Positions 48,779-59,590 of a stretch of DNA of 60,330 nucleotides are shown in pieces. Under the pieces are notes generated by a model. That model was not told the DNA's origin, searched no databases, and was given only the letters and a program-made list of their open reading frames with translations. Location of the stretch: the NCBI GenBank assembly GCA_022821275.1, contig JAJEDY010000084.1:1-60330 (forward strand). Reading direction: 5' to 3'. This stretch comes from Candidatus Latescibacterota bacterium. Its GTDB lineage: Bacteria > Latescibacterota > UBA2968. Each line of letters opens with the position of its first letter. Position 1 is the first letter of the stretch. The position numbers and the translations under genes were made by a program.

Positions 48779-51700
48779 ATGTGGCATTCTGTGCGCTTAG
48801 TGCCTGCCTTGAACTGTGTAATCATATTCGCGGCTATATTGATTGCCTTTTCTTTGCATGCACAAGATACAAACGAGGGGATATGTGCTCGCACCTCAGA
48901 GGTTCAAACTGTTATTTTGTCTCATATAAACGGTGTGAGTGATTGCGGTCTGGTCACTGTCGCACCTCTTTCTTCTATTACAGTGTTGAGTTTGAACAAT
49001 TCGGGGATTACCAGTTTGCAGTCCGATGATTTCTCCGGTTTGTCAAGTCTTGAAATTTTGCGTCTTAAGGATAATAGTTTGAGTGCCTTGCCTGCCAGTG
49101 TGTTCTCTGGTTTGACGAGTCTGAACAGACTGGATTTGCGTGGTAATCCGGGTTCAGACTTTACTCTTACTCTGCAATTGGATCGCACCGATGATGCGGA
49201 CGATACAGCGTCTGGTCCTGCGACGGTTGTGGTGAAAGTTGCCGAGGGTGCGCCGTTTGATATGATGGTTGGTTTGTCGGTGACGGATGGTACGTTGTCG
49301 TCTTCGAGTGTGACGATAGCAAAAGGTAGTACACAGAGTGATGCTATTACAGTGACACAGACCGGGGTGGGTCAAGCTACGGTGAGTCTGGGTGCTGTCC
49401 CTGCGTTGCCAGCTAATTATCGCGGTATCCAGACTGCTGTGGGCAATCCGCTCGTTCTGTTCGAGAGTGCTGTACAGACCAGGGGCTTTTTCCTTTCTCT
49501 GGATTTAGATGGTTCTGATGGTGATCAGGCAGTCCAGTCTCTTGCAGTACCCCCCCCTTCCGGTAATCAAATTATTTTCATTCAGATTTTTGGCACAGAT
49601 ATTCAAAATGCGTTCGGTTTTTCTGCACGCTTTGGATATGATGTAACTCAGGTTGTTTACGAGGGGTTTGACGCAGGCGATGTGTTGCCAAATCCCGCTG
49701 TGATTTCTGAAGAGGGTACAGGCTTTGTCGAAATTAATATTGCATCGTGGTCTGGTGGGTCTGCAACAGTCAATAGTGGTCTGATGGGTACGTTGCGGTT
49801 TCGCACCATAGATACTTTTGGAGGTACGACGATTCAACTGGTGCATGCTGAGCTTGGTCGGAATGATCAATTTGAAAGCCTGAGATCTGACGGCAACTTT
49901 GAGTTGGAGATAACTAAGCCTTCTTCTCCCGATATTGATGGGAGTGGGGTGGTGGATATTAGCGACTTTTTGCTATTTGTAGGACGCTTTGAAGCAAGCA
50001 ATGAGACATATTTGGATCGGTTCGACTTGGATGGCAATGGCAAAATCGGTTTTTCTGATTTCTTTATTTTTTCCAAAAATTTTGGCAAGACCGCACCTGT
50101 GGCTGTGAGCGCACTTGCTCCCGTGACGTTGGGAATGAATCCCGTGACTGTGGATGTATCAGACAATTTCAGCGATGCGAACAGCGATGTGTTGCACTAT
50201 ACGGCTATGTCGAGTGCAAACGCCATTGCAACGGCAAGAGTAGCGGGGAGTGAGGTAACGATCAGCCCTGTAGATGTGGGCAGTGCAAAAATTACGGTGA
50301 TTGCGACCAATGCAGGTGGATTGAGCGCGACTCAGGACATCGCCGTGACTGTGCAGCTTGCGATGGGATTTGAGGCTTCAAGAATCAAGCGTGCTGTGGA
50401 TGAGAATACGCTACCTGGCGAGAAGATTGGCGATCCGGTTGCTGTAATGAGTTTCGCTTCGCGTACATATCGCCTGAGCGGGGTTGATGCAGATCTTTTC
50501 GTCATTGACAGCAGCAGCGGGCAGATTCGTACGCGGGAGGGTGTAACGTATGATTATGAAGACAAGAGGTCCTATTATGTGAGAATGGTTATGATGGACC
50601 AACAGTACCGGGATCTGGATAGCATTGGCGTGATTATTACTATCAATGATGTGAACGAACCGCCTTCGTCGCCCCCATCGAATTTCCTGGTGGTTCCGGG
50701 TGATCGGTCACTGAGCATTCATTACAGTCCATGTATTGATGAACCCGATAAACCGCCTATCAGAGGCTATCATGCAGAACTTCGCACGGGTACGGACGGC
50801 GATTGGGGCAATCGAAAGACCATCTATGGTCGCAACACTGCCACAGTTTATTATACGAAATTGAATGTGCCTCGGTATCACGATCCAGACTTGATCAACG
50901 GTCAGTTATATCAGGTTCGAGTTTGCGCTTGGAATTCCGAGGGTGCAAGCGATTGGTCTGAGCCGGTTTCGGGTACGCCAGAACCGAGGGTGATTTTTGT
51001 GGGGACAGAGTTTGAGCAATTCTATGGTACGGAGAATCTGGCATATGCGGAAATTGATCTCTTGAACATCACCAAAGCAGGAGGCAGAATCACGGTCTCG
51101 CAAGCCGCTCTTCCTGTGCATATTTCACCGACCGAGGCTGAGGGAGTTTTCTTACAAGCAGCCGTCGTTAATAGTTTTTATGTCCCGCAGGTGCCTGCTG
51201 GGGCGGGCTTTACCATTCTGGAAGGTTCGCCGATTTTGGATATAGAACTGAAGGTTGTGGTCAATAAACGCAGGATTGACATCGGCGATGAATTGATGGA
51301 GCCTGTGGAGATTTGCCTACCTGTGACTGCTGACATTTCCAGGCCGTTTATTATTCGCTACAGCGATGAGTGGAAAATACTCGAGAATCAGCGTGTGGAT
51401 GGAAACGAGATCTGCGCTCTGACAGATGGATTCTCACTTTTTGGCGTTGGAGTGAAAAATACTCCGAAGTTAAGTTTTGGTGGTGTGACGATAGCCGATC
51501 AGGCCTATAAGCAGAATGCCCAGATTACTGATCTGGTATTGCCAACAGCGACAGGTGGCACTGCTCCGATTACTTATGCACTCAGTCCAGAGACTAATGG
51601 CACACCCAACTTGCCTGCTGGATTGAGCTTTAACGCAAATACGCACACGATTTCGGGCACACCCTCGGCGGCCTTCCCAATGACGACATTTACCTGGACG

Positions 51701-54700
51701 GCGACAGATGCTGATAACGACACAGCCGAATTGATGTTCGACATCACAGTTCTCACAGGGATATGTGCTCGCACTTCACAGGTTCAAGCAGCTATTTTGG
51801 ATGAGATAGATGGTGTGAGTGATTGTGGTTTGGTCACGAGCACCCATCTCTCCTCTGTTGAGACGCTGAGTTTGAACAATAAGGGGATCACCAGTTTGCA
51901 GTCCAATGATTTCTCCGGTTTGTCGGGTCTTGAGACTTTGCGTCTTAAGGACAACAGTTTGAGCGCATTGCCTGCTAATGTGTTTTCTGGTTTGACGAGT
52001 CTGAACAGACTGGATTTGCGGGGTAATCCCGGCTCGGACTTTATCCTTACTTTGCAATTGGATCGCACCGATGATGCGGACGATACGGCGTCTGGTCCTG
52101 CGACGGTTGTTGTGAAGGTTTCTGAGGGTGCGCCGTTTGATATGACGGTTGGTTTGTCGGTGACGGGTGGTACGTTGTCCCCTTCTTCGAGTGTGACGAT
52201 AGCCAAGGGCAGTACGCAGAGTGGTGCTGTCACCGTGACGCAGACCGGGATGGTGCAAGCTACGGTGAGTATGGGTGCTGCACCTGCGGTTCCAGAAGGT
52301 TATGGAGCTATCCAGACTGCTGTGGGCAATCCACTCGTCTTGTTCACCTCTTCGGTATTACATTTTGGTGGTCAGGAGATTGCCGACCAGACCTATAAGC
52401 AGAACAGTGTGATCACTGATCTGGTATTGCCAACAGCGACAGGTGGCACTGCTCCGATTACTTATGCACTCAGTCCAGAGACGAATGGCATACCCGACTT
52501 GCCGACTGGCCTGAGCTTTAACGCAAATACGCGCACGATTTCGGGTACACCTTCGGCGGTCTTTTCGACAACTGAGTTTACGTGGACAGCTACAGATGCA
52601 GCTAATGCCACAGCCGAACTGATGTTCGATATTACAGTTCCCGAAGGGATATGTGACCGTACCTCACAGGTTCAAGCAGCTATTCTAGATGAGGTAGAAG
52701 GTGTGAGTGATTGCGGTCTGGTTACGCTCGCCGATCTCTCTTCGGTTACGACGCTGAGTTTGAACAATTCGGGTATCACCACTTTGCAGTCCGATGATTT
52801 CTCCGGTTTGTCAAGTCTGTCCAACTTGCGTCTTAAGGACAATAGTTTGAGCACCTTGCCCGCTAATGTGTTCTCTGGTCTGACGAGTTTGACAAGACTG
52901 GATTTGCGGGGTAATCCCGGTTCAGACTTTCCCCTTACCTTGCAATTAGATCGCACAGATGATGCGGACGATACAGCGTCTGGTCCTGCGACGATTGTTG
53001 TGAAAGTAGCTGAGGGTGCGCCATTCGATATGACGGTTGGTTTGTCGGTGACGGGTGGTACGTTGTCGCCTTCTTCGAGTGTGAAGATAGCCAAGGGTAG
53101 CACTCAGAGTGGTTCTGTCACCGTGACGCAGACCGGGATGGTACAAGCCACTGTGAGTCTGGGTGCTGCACCTGCACTACCACAATTTTATCGTGGTATC
53201 CAGACTGCTGTGGGTAATCCACTCGTCTTGTTCCCTGTGGTGAATCGTGCGCCGGAGAAAGTAGGCACGATTGCTGCACAGACCTTAACCGAGGGTGTTG
53301 CCGCTGTGATGGTGGATGTGTCAGGCAACTTTTCTGATCCTGAGAATGATCCCCTGACGTATAGTGCGACATCAGATGATGAGGATGTTGCGACGGTGAG
53401 TGTGCAGGGTTCTGTTGTGACGCTTAGTCCTGTGGGTGCGGGTAGTACGACGGTCACTGTGACGGCATTGGATGCGACGGGGTCGAATATGAGTGTGGAT
53501 CAAACCATCGCTGTGACTGTGAACCCTGCAGGATTGAGTTTTGGTAATGTGACAATTGCCGATCAGACCTATAAGCAGAACAGTGCGATCACTGATCTGG
53601 TATTGCCAACAGCCATAGGTGGCACTGCTCCTATTACTTATGCACTCAGTCCAGAGACGAATGGCACACCCAACTTGCCGACTGGCCTGAGCTTTAATGC
53701 GAATACGCGCACGATTTCGGGTACACCCTCGGCGGTCTTTTCGACAACTGAGTTTACGTGGACGGCCACAGATGCAGCTAATGCCACAGCCGAACGGATG
53801 TTCGATATTACAGTTCCCGTAGGGATATGTGCTCGCACCACACAGGTTCGCGATGAGATTTTAGATCAGATAGAAGGTGTGAGTGATTGCGGTCTGGTCA
53901 CTGTCACAGATCTCTCTTCTGTTACATTGTTGAGTTTGAATAATTCAGGGATCACGGCTTTACAGGCAGATGATTTCTCTGGTCTGTCGAGTCTTGAGAT
54001 TTTGCGTCTTAAGGATAACAGTTTGAGCGCATTGCCTGCTAATGTGTTTTCTGGTCTGACGAGTTTGAACAGACTGGACTTGAGTGGCAATCCCGGTTCT
54101 GCCTTTACTCTTACCTTAGCGTTAGATCGTACCGATGATGCGGACGATACAGCACAGGGTCCTGCGACAGTTGTTGTGAAGGTTGCCGAGGGTGCGCCAT
54201 TTGATATGACGGTTGGTTTGTCGGTGACGGGTGGTACGTTGTCGCCTTCGAGTGAGACGATAGCGAAGGGTAGCACGCAAAGTGGTTCTATCACGGTGAC
54301 GCAGACCGGGATGGTACAAGCCACTGTGAGTTTGGATGCTGCCCCTGCATTGCCAGCTAATTATCGCGGTATCCAGATTGCTGTGGGTGTTCCACTCGTC
54401 TTGTTCCCTGTGGTGAACCGTGCGCCGGAGAAAGTGGGGACAATTGCTGCACAGACCTTAACCGAGGGTGCTGCTGCTGTGACGGTGGATGTGTCAGGCA
54501 ACTTTTCTGATCCTGAGAATGATCCACTAACTTATAGTGCAACATCAGATGATGAGGATGTTGTGACGGTGAGTGTGCAGGGTTCTGTTGTGACGCTTAG
54601 TCCTGTGGGTGCGGGTAGTACGACGGTTACTGTGACGGCATTGGATGCGACGGGGTCGAATATGAGTGTAGATCAAACCATCGCTGTGACTGTGAACCCT

Positions 54701-55291
54701 GCGGGGATATGCTCTCGCACTTCACAGGTTCAAACAGCCATTCTGGATGAGATAGACGGTGTGAGTGACTGTAGTTTGGTCACGAGTACACATCTCTCTT
54801 CGGTTACGAAGCTGAGTTTGAATGAATCAGAGATCACCACTTTGCAATCAGATGATTTCTCCGGTTTGACGAGTCTGGACAACTTGCGTCTTAGGAGGAA
54901 TAGTTTGAGTACGTTACCTGCTAATGTGTTTTCTGGTTTGACGAGTCTGACGAAGCTGGATTTGCGGAATAATCCGGGTTCAGACTTTACTCTTACTTTG
55001 CAATTGGATCGCACAGATGATACGGATGATACAGCATCTGGTCCTGCGACGATTGTTGTAAAAGTAGCTGAGGGTGCGCCGTTTGATATGACGGTTGGTT
55101 TGTCGGCGATAGGTGGTACGTTGTCGTCTTCTACTGTGACGATAGCAAAGGGCAGTACGCAGAGTGGTTCTATCACCGTAACACAGACCGTTACAGGTAA
55201 AGTCACTGTGAGTCTTGGTGCTGCCCCTGCGTTGCCAGCAGGTTATCGTGGTATTCAGACTGCTGTGGGTGATCCACTTGTTCTGTTTTAA
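48779..55291 (+). CDS. giant secreted LRR/cohesin/dockerin/cadherin-like protein with five near-identical modules
   Basis: 2170 residues with a signal peptide ending LHAQ. The order is LRR module 1 (about 33-225), cohesin-like domain (about 233-380, IFIQIFGTDIQNAFGFSARF), dockerin (about 383-440 with DIDGSGVVDISDFLLF and DLDGNGKIGFSDFFIF), an Ig-like repeat, a cadherin-like domain (about 530-620, ending VIITINDVNEPP), fibronectin III (about 627-735), and a unique domain to about 895. After that, putative-Ig repeats (SFGGVTIADQAYKQN) alternate with LRR modules 2 to 5, starting near 993, 1290, 1681 and 1975. Each LRR module starts with G-I-C-x-R-T and V-S-D-C and ends V-L-F. It is probably a surface scaffold or adhesin for the flanking lyases. 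Confidence 0.85.
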   Translation: MWHSVRLVPALNCVIIFAAILIAFSLHAQDTNEGICARTSEVQTVILSHINGVSDCGLVTVAPLSSITVLSLNNSGITSLQSDDFSGLSSLEILRLKDNSLSALPASVFSGLTSLNRLDLRGNPGSDFTLTLQLDRTDDADDTASGPATVVVKVAEGAPFDMMVGLSVTDGTLSSSSVTIAKGSTQSDAITVTQTGVGQATVSLGAVPALPANYRGIQTAVGNPLVLFESAVQTRGFFLSLDLDGSDGDQAVQSLAVPPPSGNQIIFIQIFGTDIQNAFGFSARFGYDVTQVVYEGFDAGDVLPNPAVISEEGTGFVEINIASWSGGSATVNSGLMGTLRFRTIDTFGGTTIQLVHAELGRNDQFESLRSDGNFELEITKPSSPDIDGSGVVDISDFLLFVGRFEASNETYLDRFDLDGNGKIGFSDFFIFSKNFGKTAPVAVSALAPVTLGMNPVTVDVSDNFSDANSDVLHYTAMSSANAIATARVAGSEVTISPVDVGSAKITVIATNAGGLSATQDIAVTVQLAMGFEASRIKRAVDENTLPGEKIGDPVAVMSFASRTYRLSGVDADLFVIDSSSGQIRTREGVTYDYEDKRSYYVRMVMMDQQYRDLDSIGVIITINDVNEPPSSPPSNFLVVPGDRSLSIHYSPCIDEPDKPPIRGYHAELRTGTDGDWGNRKTIYGRNTATVYYTKLNVPRYHDPDLINGQLYQVRVCAWNSEGASDWSEPVSGTPEPRVIFVGTEFEQFYGTENLAYAEIDLLNITKAGGRITVSQAALPVHISPTEAEGVFLQAAVVNSFYVPQVPAGAGFTILEGSPILDIELKVVVNKRRIDIGDELMEPVEICLPVTADISRPFIIRYSDEWKILENQRVDGNEICALTDGFSLFGVGVKNTPKLSFGGVTIADQAYKQNAQITDLVLPTATGGTAPITYALSPETNGTPNLPAGLSFNANTHTISGTPSAAFPMTTFTWTATDADNDTAELMFDITVLTGICARTSQVQAAILDEIDGVSDCGLVTSTHLSSVETLSLNNKGITSLQSNDFSGLSGLETLRLKDNSLSALPANVFSGLTSLNRLDLRGNPGSDFILTLQLDRTDDADDTASGPATVVVKVSEGAPFDMTVGLSVTGGTLSPSSSVTIAKGSTQSGAVTVTQTGMVQATVSMGAAPAVPEGYGAIQTAVGNPLVLFTSSVLHFGGQEIADQTYKQNSVITDLVLPTATGGTAPITYALSPETNGIPDLPTGLSFNANTRTISGTPSAVFSTTEFTWTATDAANATAELMFDITVPEGICDRTSQVQAAILDEVEGVSDCGLVTLADLSSVTTLSLNNSGITTLQSDDFSGLSSLSNLRLKDNSLSTLPANVFSGLTSLTRLDLRGNPGSDFPLTLQLDRTDDADDTASGPATIVVKVAEGAPFDMTVGLSVTGGTLSPSSSVKIAKGSTQSGSVTVTQTGMVQATVSLGAAPALPQFYRGIQTAVGNPLVLFPVVNRAPEKVGTIAAQTLTEGVAAVMVDVSGNFSDPENDPLTYSATSDDEDVATVSVQGSVVTLSPVGAGSTTVTVTALDATGSNMSVDQTIAVTVNPAGLSFGNVTIADQTYKQNSAITDLVLPTAIGGTAPITYALSPETNGTPNLPTGLSFNANTRTISGTPSAVFSTTEFTWTATDAANATAERMFDITVPVGICARTTQVRDEILDQIEGVSDCGLVTVTDLSSVTLLSLNNSGITALQADDFSGLSSLEILRLKDNSLSALPANVFSGLTSLNRLDLSGNPGSAFTLTLALDRTDDADDTAQGPATVVVKVAEGAPFDMTVGLSVTGGTLSPSSETIAKGSTQSGSITVTQTGMVQATVSLDAAPALPANYRGIQIAVGVPLVLFPVVNRAPEKVGTIAAQTLTEGAAAVTVDVSGNFSDPENDPLTYSATSDDEDVVTVSVQGSVVTLSPVGAGSTTVTVTALDATGSNMSVDQTIAVTVNPAGICSRTSQVQTAILDEIDGVSDCSLVTSTHLSSVTKLSLNESEITTLQSDDFSGLTSLDNLRLRRNSLSTLPANVFSGLTSLTKLDLRNNPGSDFTLTLQLDRTDDTDDTASGPATIVVKVAEGAPFDMTVGLSAIGGTLSSSTVTIAKGSTQSGSITVTQTVTGKVTVSLGAAPALPAGYRGIQTAVGDPLVLF
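48878..49465 (+). repeat. LRR module repeat 1
   Basis: About 585 bases; the same unit recurs four times downstream. It codes for a Cys pair at the start, four leucine-rich repeats with N-N-S-G-I-T-S-L-Q-S-D-D-F, and a Calx-beta-like tail. Confidence 0.85.
51758..52346 (+). repeat. LRR module repeat 2
   Basis: Same unit as 48878-49465, preceded by a putative-Ig repeat. Confidence 0.85.
52646..53232 (+). repeat. LRR module repeat 3
   Basis: Same unit; the first Cys pair lies in GICDRTSQ. Preceded by a putative-Ig repeat nearly identical to the one before repeat 2. Confidence 0.85.
53821..54408 (+). repeat. LRR module repeat 4
   Basis: Same unit, preceded by a cadherin-like repeat (VVNRAPEKVGTIAAQTLTEG) and a putative-Ig repeat. 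Confidence 0.85.
54704..55291 (+). repeat. LRR module repeat 5
   Basis: Same unit, ending the protein at V-L-F-stop; preceded by a second copy of the VVNRAPEKVGTIAAQTLTEG repeat. Confidence 0.85.
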
Positions 55292-55339: not shown

Positions 55340-58300
55340 ATGAACTTACAAAGATGTTTGGCCCTTGTTGTGGGTAGCGTGTTTTGCCTGACCAATGCTA
55401 CGATGGCACAGGATACGCCCTGGCACTATAATTTTGAGGAGGCGAGTCTATCTTCGGCCTACCGGGCAGCAGATTCGGGTAGCCAACTGTCGCTTTCGAC
55501 GCGCCATTACAAATCGGGACGGCAGTCTCTGAGGTGGTCCTGGCGAAATGGCAGTCGCCTTTTGTTTACAGACCCTGAGCCGGAACGAAAAAAGAAGTTG
55601 ATTGCATTTCGGGCATGGGTTTACTGCGAAGAAGCATTGGCGGATGCGGTGTTGACATTTGGGCTTGGAACGCAGGCTGAGCTAGTAAATAATCCGCGTT
55701 ATCAGTTTGAGTTTGGTCTGAATTTTACAGGATGGCGTGCTATGTGGATTGAACTTGCCGAGGATGCGACCAATGCGTCTTATACAGGATCGGGCAAAGA
55801 GAAGGCACTGGCACTTGAAATCCGGGCGCCACACAATGTATCTTCTGGTTCTGTGTATCTGGACCTGGTGGAAATGGATAGAGATATTCGTCGGGGCGCG
55901 CCTGATCCGCAAGTGCCTTATATCAACGGGGGTGCTGCAGAAAATCGGGAGTACCGCTGGAGTTTGAATACTTTGCCAGGGCCTGTTCCAGCAGAGATTA
56001 CTGAGGAAGAACGGCGGGCTTTTGAGACGATTGTCGAGCGATATGAGACCTGGGTATTGGGTGACAACGTGCTGGAAGACTTGCGTGAGCCTGTACAGGT
56101 CCGCCTCAGTACGGTGAGCAAGGTTGCGCGTTTTGGACGTCGCAATCTGGAAGAATACGAGATTCGGCGCGAGGGCGATGTGATTTTGGGAAAACCACTG
56201 TTTGCGAGTCGCTCGCCGTATAGCCCACATTTTGAGTCTATTTTTCAGAATGTGTTATTGCGTCTGGTACTGGATTATCGGTTGAATAGCGACAGTGAGT
56301 TGAGGGATGATCTGCTTGATCTTTTTGATTATCTCCACGATCAGGGATGGGCTGCCGGCAGTGGTCTGGGCACACTTCATCACGAATTTTTGCGGATAGC
56401 TGGCTATGCCCATGCTGTGTTTTTGATGCGCGAAGACCTGCATGCCACAGGACGGCTGGAACGAGAGGCATTGACCCTCGAATGGCACAGTATGTTTGGT
56501 GAGGTGTATGAGGAGAACTGGGATCCAGGTACGAATGTAGATTTTTTGCGTTCGGTGGGGATGTATCGTTTGTTGCGTGTTTTGATGATGGAAGATACAC
56601 CCTTGAAAGTGGCGATGATGCGTTGTTATCTGGCCTGGCTGGATAACGCGCTTTCAATTGCGCCTGGTTGGCTGGATACGATCAAGCCGGATTATTCGGG
56701 TTTTCATCATCGGGGTATATATGCTAATGCGTATGCACCCAATGCGTTTCACATAGCTTCGTTGCTGGTGTATTTGTTGCGCGATACGCCTTTTGCGGTT
56801 GCAGATGATAAGCGCGACAATGTGAAGCAGGCACTGTTGACCACAAGGGTCATGGCGAATACGTATGATATTTCTTCTGCCATCAATGGGCGTTTTCCTC
56901 TTCAGACAAGCGCGGCAGACAAGCTGTTGCCAGCGTATGTGTATGCGGCTTTGAGCTATACGCCGGTTGATGTGGAACTGGCCGGCGTGTTTATGCGCTT
57001 GTGGAGACCGGAATTGCCTCTCTTACAAGAAGCCTTTGATGCGGCGTCTCCAGGGATCATGTATATAGATACACCGGGTTCAATACAAATGATGGTGGAT
57101 TTTGCAGAGGCGAATTATACCCCTCCTGAAGTGGCACCCTCTGGTCACTGGACCCTGCCTTATGGCGCGGTGTCCATTCACAGACGCGACAAGTGGATGG
57201 TGAGCATGAAGGGATGGAGCAAATACGTGTGGGATTTTGAATCGGGTAACGATGGATCGAACCAACTCGGTCGTTATTTGAGCTATGGCTCAATGCTGAT
57301 CTACGGCAGTGGCGACCCGGTTACCCGCGAGGCGAGCGGGATTGTTCCAGAAGGATGGGATTGGAGCATGTGGCCTGGTACTACGGTAATCCGCCTGAGC
57401 CATCCAGAGCTGGGCGAATATAGACGCGACCGCAATTTCTCAGATGAGACCTTTGCAGGTGGGGTGAATATAGGAGGTCAAAACGGTGTGTTCGCATTGA
57501 AGTTGCACGATACGCAACACAATCCAAGTTTTCGCGCGGTCAAGACTGTGTTCTGTTTTGACGATGTGCTAATCTGTCTGGGGTCGGGTATTGAGAATGA
57601 TGATGCAGGACATGCGACTGTGACGCCGCTGTTTCAGGCATCTATCACTGAAGACCGTCCTACGGGTGTGAATGGGGAAAGTGTGCGTGCAATTCCATAC
57701 ACCTTTTCGGGAACACCGAACCAAAAGGAGTGGTTGATGGATGCGTCGGGTAATGGCTATGTGATTCCCAATGGGGGTGGTCTGCGGGTGCAACGTCAGA
57801 TGCAGGAACCTGCGGGAGGTTTTAAAAAATCTTATTTCGGCGGCAAAGGGACTTTTGAATTGGCCTATCTCGATCACGGCAATGCGCCCTCAAATGAAGG
57901 GTATGAATACGCGGTGCTGGTGCAGCAACCGTTGAGCCGAATAAGGAAGTTTGCCGATACGCCGGAATATGTGGTGTGGCAGCGAGACGCGCAGGCGCAT
58001 ATCGTGCATTATCCGAAGTTGAAAACGACGGGTTATGCCGTGCTCGATGTTGGTGCAAGGCCCGCCAATGGTGCACTTGTGTCGGTTGATGTGCCGAGTC
58101 TGGTGATGACTCGTAAGGTATCAGATGGTCTATTACTTTCGGTTTCGGATCCGGATTTTGGATGGAATTGGATTATTCAAGATCCGCATCGACAGAACGA
58201 GACGCTGGTTGTCAATCAGCCGAGTGTGCCTCGTAAAGTGACGGTGACGGTGCGCGGGCAGTGGGATATGGAGGGGGCGAATGCGTTAGCTCAGGTTACA

Positions 58301-58618
58301 GATGTGCAGTCTGATCGGACAGTAGTGGAATTTACCTGTCAGGATGGCAAGACTGTGGAAGTGAAACTCCTCTGGACCAATGCACTATCGCGCCTGGATT
58401 TTGATGGGAATGGCGTGGTCAATACCAGGGATTTTTTGATGTTTATCAACAATTTTGGCTTGTCGGAAGGTGATGTGGGTTTTGAAGCAAAATACGATCT
58501 GGATGGGAATGGGATAGTGGGGATCAACGATTTTCTGATTTTTTCGGAGGGATATGGCAAGCGGATGAGTGGAAAGCCCGTGGCTCTTAGAAATGGGGGC
58601 GAAAAATTGGGGTCGTGA
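55340..58618 (+). CDS. polysaccharide lyase family 8, chondroitinase ABC-like, with C-terminal dockerin
   Basis: 1092 residues, a close paralogue of the protein at 45657 along its whole length, including the signal peptide MNLQRCLALVVGSV, the active-site region GFHHRGIYANAYAPN, NGRFP and FESGNDGSNQLGRYLSYG. It differs by a C-terminal extension (about 1016-1072) with two EF-hand loops, RLDFDGNGVVNTRDFLMF and YDLDGNGIVGINDFLIF: a dockerin. It could dock onto the cohesin-like domain of the giant neighbour. AAGGAGG precedes the ATG, 49 bases after the giant gene, so it is co-transcribed. A bidirectional terminator follows. Confidence 0.88.
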   Translation: MNLQRCLALVVGSVFCLTNATMAQDTPWHYNFEEASLSSAYRAADSGSQLSLSTRHYKSGRQSLRWSWRNGSRLLFTDPEPERKKKLIAFRAWVYCEEALADAVLTFGLGTQAELVNNPRYQFEFGLNFTGWRAMWIELAEDATNASYTGSGKEKALALEIRAPHNVSSGSVYLDLVEMDRDIRRGAPDPQVPYINGGAAENREYRWSLNTLPGPVPAEITEEERRAFETIVERYETWVLGDNVLEDLREPVQVRLSTVSKVARFGRRNLEEYEIRREGDVILGKPLFASRSPYSPHFESIFQNVLLRLVLDYRLNSDSELRDDLLDLFDYLHDQGWAAGSGLGTLHHEFLRIAGYAHAVFLMREDLHATGRLEREALTLEWHSMFGEVYEENWDPGTNVDFLRSVGMYRLLRVLMMEDTPLKVAMMRCYLAWLDNALSIAPGWLDTIKPDYSGFHHRGIYANAYAPNAFHIASLLVYLLRDTPFAVADDKRDNVKQALLTTRVMANTYDISSAINGRFPLQTSAADKLLPAYVYAALSYTPVDVELAGVFMRLWRPELPLLQEAFDAASPGIMYIDTPGSIQMMVDFAEANYTPPEVAPSGHWTLPYGAVSIHRRDKWMVSMKGWSKYVWDFESGNDGSNQLGRYLSYGSMLIYGSGDPVTREASGIVPEGWDWSMWPGTTVIRLSHPELGEYRRDRNFSDETFAGGVNIGGQNGVFALKLHDTQHNPSFRAVKTVFCFDDVLICLGSGIENDDAGHATVTPLFQASITEDRPTGVNGESVRAIPYTFSGTPNQKEWLMDASGNGYVIPNGGGLRVQRQMQEPAGGFKKSYFGGKGTFELAYLDHGNAPSNEGYEYAVLVQQPLSRIRKFADTPEYVVWQRDAQAHIVHYPKLKTTGYAVLDVGARPANGALVSVDVPSLVMTRKVSDGLLLSVSDPDFGWNWIIQDPHRQNETLVVNQPSVPRKVTVTVRGQWDMEGANALAQVTDVQSDRTVVEFTCQDGKTVEVKLLWTNALSRLDFDGNGVVNTRDFLMFINNFGLSEGDVGFEAKYDLDGNGIVGINDFLIFSEGYGKRMSGKPVALRNGGEKLGS

Positions 58619-58635: not shown

Positions 58636-58667
58636 AAAAAAGCCGCCACATTATGTGGCGGCTTTTT
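58636..58667. terminator. bidirectional intrinsic terminator between PL8 operon and DUF5069-like gene
   Basis: AAAAAGCCGCCACA and TGTGGCGGCTTTTT arms around TTA or TATG, with A and T runs on both sides. Confidence 0.9.
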
Positions 58668-58674
58668 GCGTTTC

Positions 58675-58950
58675 TTATTTAGAGTGCGACTTGTCCCAAA
58701 TGGGTTTTACTTTTTCGATGACTTCGGCATCGGTCGGGCTGGATGCGACGATGTTCGTAAATTCTTCAGCTTCAACTCCGAGTTCCTCCAGGAACTTTCT
58801 GTCAGCGGGTCACGGATAGACGTAATCACCGATGCAGCCCCGCAATTTTGCACGGGCTTTATCTGTTATGCGCGGTAGCCAGGGCATGTCGCCCATGTAA
58901 AGCTGACGGCTGCGCGGTCTAAAATCGACGGCGGAACTGAGTTTGTCCAT
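58675..58950 (-). CDS. DUF5069-like protein with in-frame TGA at the conserved Cys, probable selenoprotein
   Basis: 92 codons on the minus strand from the ATG at 58950 (perfect AAGGAGG eight bases upstream) to TAA at 58675-58677. Codon 47 (58812-58810) is TGA. Reading it as Sec gives a continuous product: PRSRQLYMGDMPWLPRITDK, then GDYVYP-Sec-PADRKFLEELGVEAEEF. As I recall DUF5069 (PF16798), its members have Y-x-x-C-P-x-D at this point, so the TGA replaces the family Cys. From 14 nt after the TGA, AGTTCC-TGGA-GGAACT forms a 6-bp stem with a 4-nt loop whose second base is G, starting 20 nt after TGA. This fits the bacterial SECIS rules. The alternative is a nonsense mutation. Confidence 0.7.
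58781..58796 (-). promoter_or_regulatory. candidate bacterial SECIS hairpin
   Basis: Minus-strand stem AGTTCC/GGAACT with apical loop TGGA, 19 nt between the TGA and the loop. A guanine is in the first two loop positions, as required for SelB recognition. The surrounding codons still encode the conserved KFLEEL segment. Confidence 0.6.
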
Positions 58951-59011
58951 TGTAGATTCCTCCTTGTAATGTGGTTGTTACAACTTAATGGTTTTCGCGG
59001 AGGATAGCAAG

Positions 59012-59590
59012 TTAGAAAGTTATTGAGTGGTTGTATGTGCTCAGCATTGTGTCGCCGTATTTTTTTTGTCGGGAGAGGGAGAGATTGGGAAAGGATTTGG
59101 GTAGCGGTGTACGAGCGGCGTGTTGGACGAGGATGTGTGCGTTGGGCGCGAGTATCGGCGTTGTTGCGAGACGGGTGAGTATGGTGCAGGACATGGGTTG
59201 CCCGTTTAATTGTTGGTGGTAGGGTGGGTCGAGGTAGATGATGTCGAATAGGGCTTTTGAATGCGCGAGTTGGGGCAAGAGTTTTTGCGCGGGGCGCGCG
59301 TAGAGTTGGATGCGGTCGTTGAGTTGCCAATTTTCTATAAGTTGCGCGATGAAGCGGTTGCAACGGCGGTCGGGTTCATTGATGACTACCCGCGCGCCGC
59401 GGCTGCAGGCTTCGAGGCCGATTTGTCCAGAACAGGAGAAGAGGTCGAGGAAATAACTGCCGTAGAGGATTTCACCGAGGGAAGAGAATACGGCTTTTTT
59501 TACAAAGTCGGATGTGACGCGGGCATTGCCGTATTTTCTATTATTAAAAGGAATGCGGCGGCCCTTAAATTCGCCGGCGATGATGCGCAT
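59012..59590 (-). CDS. rsmD: 16S rRNA (guanine(966)-N(2))-methyltransferase RsmD
   Basis: 192 residues. It starts MRIIAGEFKGRRI as RsmD proteins do. SAM-binding FLDLFSCSGQIGLEACSRGA and the catalytic YLDPPY motif are present. It methylates G966 of 16S rRNA in the 30S subunit. It follows the GWxTD paralogue by 11 bases on the same strand. No clear Shine-Dalgarno is present, so translation may depend on that neighbour. Confidence 0.92.
   Translation of the reverse strand: MRIIAGEFKGRRIPFNNRKYGNARVTSDFVKKAVFSSLGEILYGSYFLDLFSCSGQIGLEACSRGARVVINEPDRRCNRFIAQLIENWQLNDRIQLYARPAQKLLPQLAHSKALFDIIYLDPPYHQQLNGQPMSCTILTRLATTPILAPNAHILVQHAARTPLPKSFPNLSLSRQKKYGDTMLSTYNHSITF

Follow-up and report, generated by a model that had tools for sequence, protein, structure and literature searches.

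Candidatus Latescibacterota bacterium is represented here by a stretch of 60,330 nucleotides (nt), called the window, from a 5.66-Mb metagenome-assembled genome (MAG). Close to its end, on the minus strand, lies a small gene of the DUF5069 family (58675..58950), composed of 91 sense codons and a TAA and interrupted in frame by a single TGA, at codon 47 (58810..58812, minus strand). The frame 58950-58675 translates as MDKLSSAVDFRPRSRQLYMGDMPWLPRITDKARAKLRGCIGDYVYP-(TGA)-PADRKFLEELG...HSK-TAA. Judged from the sequence, the Shine-Dalgarno element is AAGGAGGAA (58957..58965, minus strand), 6 nt 5' of the ATG. Downstream of the TGA, the hairpin AGTTCC-TGGA-GGAACT (58781..58796, minus strand) resembles a bacterial selenocysteine insertion sequence (SECIS). 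Its first base is nt 14 past the TGA; the stem has 6 bp, the loop is UGGA, and 19 nt separate TGA and loop.

A sequence-only reading had proposed that the TGA encodes selenocysteine (Sec), from a minus-strand frame broken solely at codon 47, a strong Shine-Dalgarno, similarity on either side of the TGA and a 6-bp stem with a GG-containing tetraloop starting 14 nt after it. Its coordinates and its hairpin are correct, and the ribosome binding site was found as described. Both halves of the protein match DUF5069 (PF16798): the whole protein scores 60.8 bits over profile positions 4-75 (gathering cut-off of 27 bits), the first half 28.0 bits and the second half 18.7 bits, which is under the cut-off when taken alone.

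The TGA column in related genomes

If the TGA were a nonsense mutation, real or artefactual, a lone stop in an otherwise intact small gene of one MAG would look exactly like this one. The relatives argue against such a pseudogene or sequencing error. In the window's own genus, family and order, the homologues carry one internal TGA (60 relatives searched). Throughout the Latescibacterota, the DUF5069 gene was found in 43 of the 64 genomes searched, with exactly one TGA in 36 and none in seven. The single stop of the interrupted homologues is always TGA (36/36), and the seven others have TGC or TGT, encoding cysteine (Cys), at this exact column. The Poribacteria repeat the pattern: 73 of 79 matches contain one TGA, and all six without a stop have Cys. 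Homologues from a class labelled Chloroflexota are mostly stop-free, and four genomes have a TGA at the column. TGA at this codon is shared by more than 100 genomes from three phyla; TAA or TAG occurred in 0 cases across the Latescibacterota, Poribacteria and Chloroflexota, random stops were not seen in close relatives, and every non-TGA homologue read has TGC or TGT. Both kinds of homologue on which the sequence-only reading depended, with TGA and with Cys at the column, exist.

Nonsynonymous change is well under synonymous change on both the 5' and the 3' side of the TGA; the segment after it is therefore translated as protein. With purifying selection persisting 3' of a stop that is shared so widely, a pseudogene or error is extremely improbable, and the gene is almost certainly intact rather than broken. 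The Cys partner of the column is also visible outside these phyla: in the solved DUF5069 structure 3omd, the Cys of CPLD aligns with the Sec column, and most paralogous DUF5069 domains have Cys there. A tree of 44 proteins (83 columns, the Sec column left out) requires three Sec/Cys changes, so Sec and Cys have been exchanged a few times, in a direction that 83 columns cannot settle.

Some homologues have unusual settings. A Latescibacterota-like Sec gene (L106) lies on a contig of an Alphaproteobacteria-labelled bin and is probably misbinned. Proteins with two to three DUF5069 domains in tandem occur at G000:C83:24940-25755 and G015:C47 (L130, L131); some of their repeats have CPxD and others xSGLD. 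Among viral contigs, 65 pattern matches included no relative.

The hairpin and the selenocysteine machinery

The bacterial SECIS model describes a loop of 3-9 nt and a stem of 4-16 bp at 16-37 nt from the UGA, and requires a G within the first two loop positions (PMC13188914). The loop, stem and spacing of the window hairpin agree with this geometry. Constraint is also seen across relatives. Among 52 sequences with Sec, synonymous entropy is zero at codons +5 to +9 (TTC CTG GAG GAA, preceded by AAG wherever Lys is encoded); the next lowest column reaches 0.41 bits, and the mean elsewhere is 1.34 bits. Variation is nearly or entirely absent from the inner stem TTCC/GGAA and the loop TGGA: the loop is TGGA in 46/46 distinct Sec sequences, 45 of which form the inner five pairs. 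The outer stem pair covaries, being GC in 24 sequences and CG in 12 with 0 mismatches, and the covariation score of 0.311 (0.101 in shuffles) is reached by 0/500 shuffles. The core TTCCTGGAGGAA is frozen in the Latescibacterota and the Poribacteria. This 12-nt core stands at the same offset in 53/53 further Poribacteria loci, and locus L107 retains TTCCTGGAGGAA despite one extra codon.

The hairpin is lost in Cys homologues. Of 14 Cys sequences, one has the TGGA loop and a different one the inner five pairs. In genome G023, which is without SelB, a Cys (TGT) homologue (L035/L097) keeps the full stem around a TACA loop, and its sequence looks like a decayed SECIS. These comparisons bear on a further explanation, that the 46-residue N-terminal peptide is the main product and the hairpin regulates read-through. 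Since readers of UGA compete with the release factor, as textbooks describe, some 46-residue product is likely. However, the downstream part is conserved as protein, the TGA exchanges with Cys, and loop and stem occur together in 0/14 Cys sequences, as a SECIS predicts. Regulated read-through is very unlikely. The hairpin, frozen in two phyla and lost with Cys, also lends itself well to testing SECIS rules on natural sequences.

The Chloroflexota present another element. The TGA loci are L142, L143, L144 and L145, of which three are complete. These three genes have a distinct hairpin, GCTC-GGT-GAG(C/T), which lies about 21 nt beyond the TGA, and no GGT-loop hairpin was found in the Chloroflexota Cys relative L146. 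Because this hairpin is unrelated to the TGGA one, a separate adoption of Sec in the Chloroflexota is suggested.

The genome from which the window comes has the full set selA, selB, selC and selD, genes that the sequence-only reading had left to be searched for. selB adjoins selA (C71:91095-94354), and selD lies side by side with the tRNA-Sec gene (selC, anticodon TCA; C84:52601-53722). The selD gene (G000:C84:52601-53524, L127), directly upstream of tRNA-Sec, has its own in-frame TGA (SCGG-TGA-ASKLDP) followed by a GGT-containing hairpin, and its product is read from this as a selenoprotein itself. It is like the DUF5069 gene in the succession of TGA and hairpin, but belongs to a known selenoprotein family and has another hairpin sequence.

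Among the Latescibacterota, SelB was detected in 35/36 genomes with the TGA gene, 6/7 with the Cys gene and 3/17 without a DUF5069 gene (TGA vs. gene-less: Fisher p ~4e-9, uncorrected for kinship). A genome of the window's genus (G004) has neither SelB nor the DUF5069 gene, a double absence that may stem from gene loss or from gaps in the assembly. In the Chloroflexota, SelB was found for three of the four genomes with TGA; in the Poribacteria, the tested TGA genomes have it too, apart from the genomes of L093 and L109.

An open frame across the TGA would also be expected if TGA were reassigned genome-wide, for example to Trp. Yet of 24 long frames taken from the window, six end in TGA, and the interrupted genes L025, L028, L046 and L049 have TGA as their last codon as well. 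The alternative residue is Cys and not Trp, and a tRNA-Sec with UCA anticodon is present together with SelA, SelB and SelD. A reassigned code is accordingly about as improbable as a broken gene.

The reading that the gene encodes a 91-residue short-form DUF5069 selenoprotein, with Sec47 inserted at the UGA by means of SelB and the hairpin, is thus held with very high confidence as a prediction from sequence. The conserved TGA, its pairing with Cys, the constraint on the hairpin and the full machinery support what the sequence-only reading had proposed. SelB carrying Sec-tRNA(Sec) would bind the hairpin just past the UGA, and selenocysteine would be placed at position 47, which corresponds to the Cys of the CPxD motif in other DUF5069 proteins. 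The TGA, the pairing, the SECIS constraint, the machinery and the conserved sequence 3' of the TGA were established by comparison; the actual insertion of Sec and its chemistry are steps that we infer.

Several results weigh against this reading. The folding energy of the window hairpin is -10.0 kcal/mol for a 45-nt stretch and -6.5 kcal/mol for a 30-nt core (SECIS criterion: <= -7.5 kcal/mol), and its stability is not better than that of shuffles (z -0.23). As shuffles are equally stable, a single sequence cannot put the hairpin beyond chance; the stability of the lone window hairpin was dropped as evidence, and the case rests on comparison. No confident SelB was found in the TGA genomes G027 and G174 or in those of L093 and L109, MAGs that are possibly incomplete, nor in the bin of L106. 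Finally, a fold search (Foldseek) gave, beyond 3omd, no functional relative and suggested no reaction.

Fold, chemistry and relation to known families

The structure model of the window protein is all-helical (mean predicted local distance difference test score, pLDDT, of 90.8). In the same fold search, it matched the single solved relative, 3omd, a protein of Leptospirillum rubarum, with an E-value of 8.3e-5, a template modelling (TM) score of 0.78 (query) and a root-mean-square deviation of 1.4 A. The two share their fold, and the Sec column pairs with the Cys of CPLD. PF16798 differs in length: its profile has 133 positions, whereas the window protein, of ~90 residues, matches only 4-75 and is without the last part. 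Members of PF16798 have Cys where the window protein has Sec, and some tandem repeats lack that Cys. The invariant residues include P12, R13, W24, D30, K31, G41, Y43, P46, Sec/Cys47, D50, L54 and F64, and the motif around Sec is U-[PGA]-x-D.

In the model, Sec47 directly precedes the helix 48-57, a position that would favour a reactive selenolate. No conserved Cys other than column 47 was found in the alignment. Because there is no second one, the protein is probably a redox enzyme or a nucleophile with a single selenolate, which an outside thiol or reductase would regenerate. A different chemistry, in which Sec is real but ligates a metal or cofactor or acts as a transfer nucleophile, competes with this proposed chemistry and not with the presence of Sec. 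The lack of a conserved resolving Cys, the orphan all-helical fold and the lack of any known enzyme relative fit such a non-redox role. The modelled placement of the residue just before a helix suits a redox role, as does an oxidoreductase neighbour with an NAD-binding domain in one family, and the non-redox alternative appears unlikely.

Like catalogued bacterial selenoproteins, the window gene combines a UGA with a hairpin within 16-37 nt whose loop has a G within its first two positions, Sec in place of a family Cys, and Sec machinery in the genome. In contrast to them, DUF5069 is all-helical and not thioredoxin-like, and has U-[PGA]-x-D instead of CxxU, UxxC or UxxT. A 2026 review (PMC13188914) describes a thioredoxin-like fold in most characterised selenoproteins, and its Table 1 catalogues prokaryotic selenoproteins in 119 families or subfamilies. 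DUF5069/PF16798 is not among these 119 entries, in line with the sequence-only reading, for which DUF5069 was not known as a described selenoprotein family. Since it is missing from this catalogue, we read it as a new selenoprotein family, predicted to use the ordinary bacterial mechanism. NCBIfam models gave 0 matches to the window protein, no paper on DUF5069 was found, and the titles and abstracts of Poribacteria and Latescibacterota literature held nothing relevant on selenoproteins or selenocysteine. The hypothetical selenoprotein GOS_A, reported in 2008 with two Sec sequences (PMC2398784), might belong to the DUF5069 family; newness is judged here against the catalogue and NCBIfam, with the GOS_A sequences outside the comparison.

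A wider proposal is made tentatively, with slightly more doubt than belief: DUF5069 proteins may be unrecognised selenol/thiol enzymes with an all-helical, non-thioredoxin fold, which adopted Sec at least twice (in Latescibacterota/Poribacteria and in Chloroflexota) with separately evolved SECIS elements. If true, this would imply a new single-selenolate reaction that needs no second Cys. As DUF5069 is all-helical and most characterised selenoproteins are thioredoxin-like, the set of folds using Sec would widen. The Sec column marks the likely reactive residue in a domain of unknown function, and many uncultured bacteria are predicted to have a selenium-dependent protein. A gene caller taking each TGA as a stop would end the gene at codon 47.

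Neighbouring genes

No single conserved operon was found across the compared loci. Upstream of the DUF5069 gene, a PF03602 (RsmD-type methyltransferase) gene (59012..59590, minus strand) is also found in several related genomes, from the window's family and one related family. In the Latescibacterota family f4, the gene of an oxidoreductase with an NAD-binding domain (PF00175) immediately follows the DUF5069 gene in its Sec as well as its Cys form (e.g., L087:3260-4141, similar at other f4 loci), and the oxidoreductase is a plausible electron donor in that family. In the Poribacteria, the downstream gene encodes a chorismate mutase/prephenate dehydratase. Because the operon is not shared, these neighbours hint only weakly at function.

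Downstream of the window gene, the sequence contains an inverted repeat resembling a terminator, AGCCGCCACA-TAA-TGTGGCGGCT, with a run of T after it (58636..58663, minus strand). In an Rfam scan of the locus, all matches were far under the gathering scores and mostly on this terminator. Farther on, the window encodes a dockerin-bearing protein of polysaccharide lyase family 8 (55340-58618), adjoined by the gene of a protein of 2170 residues whose repeated segments look leucine-rich (48779-55291).
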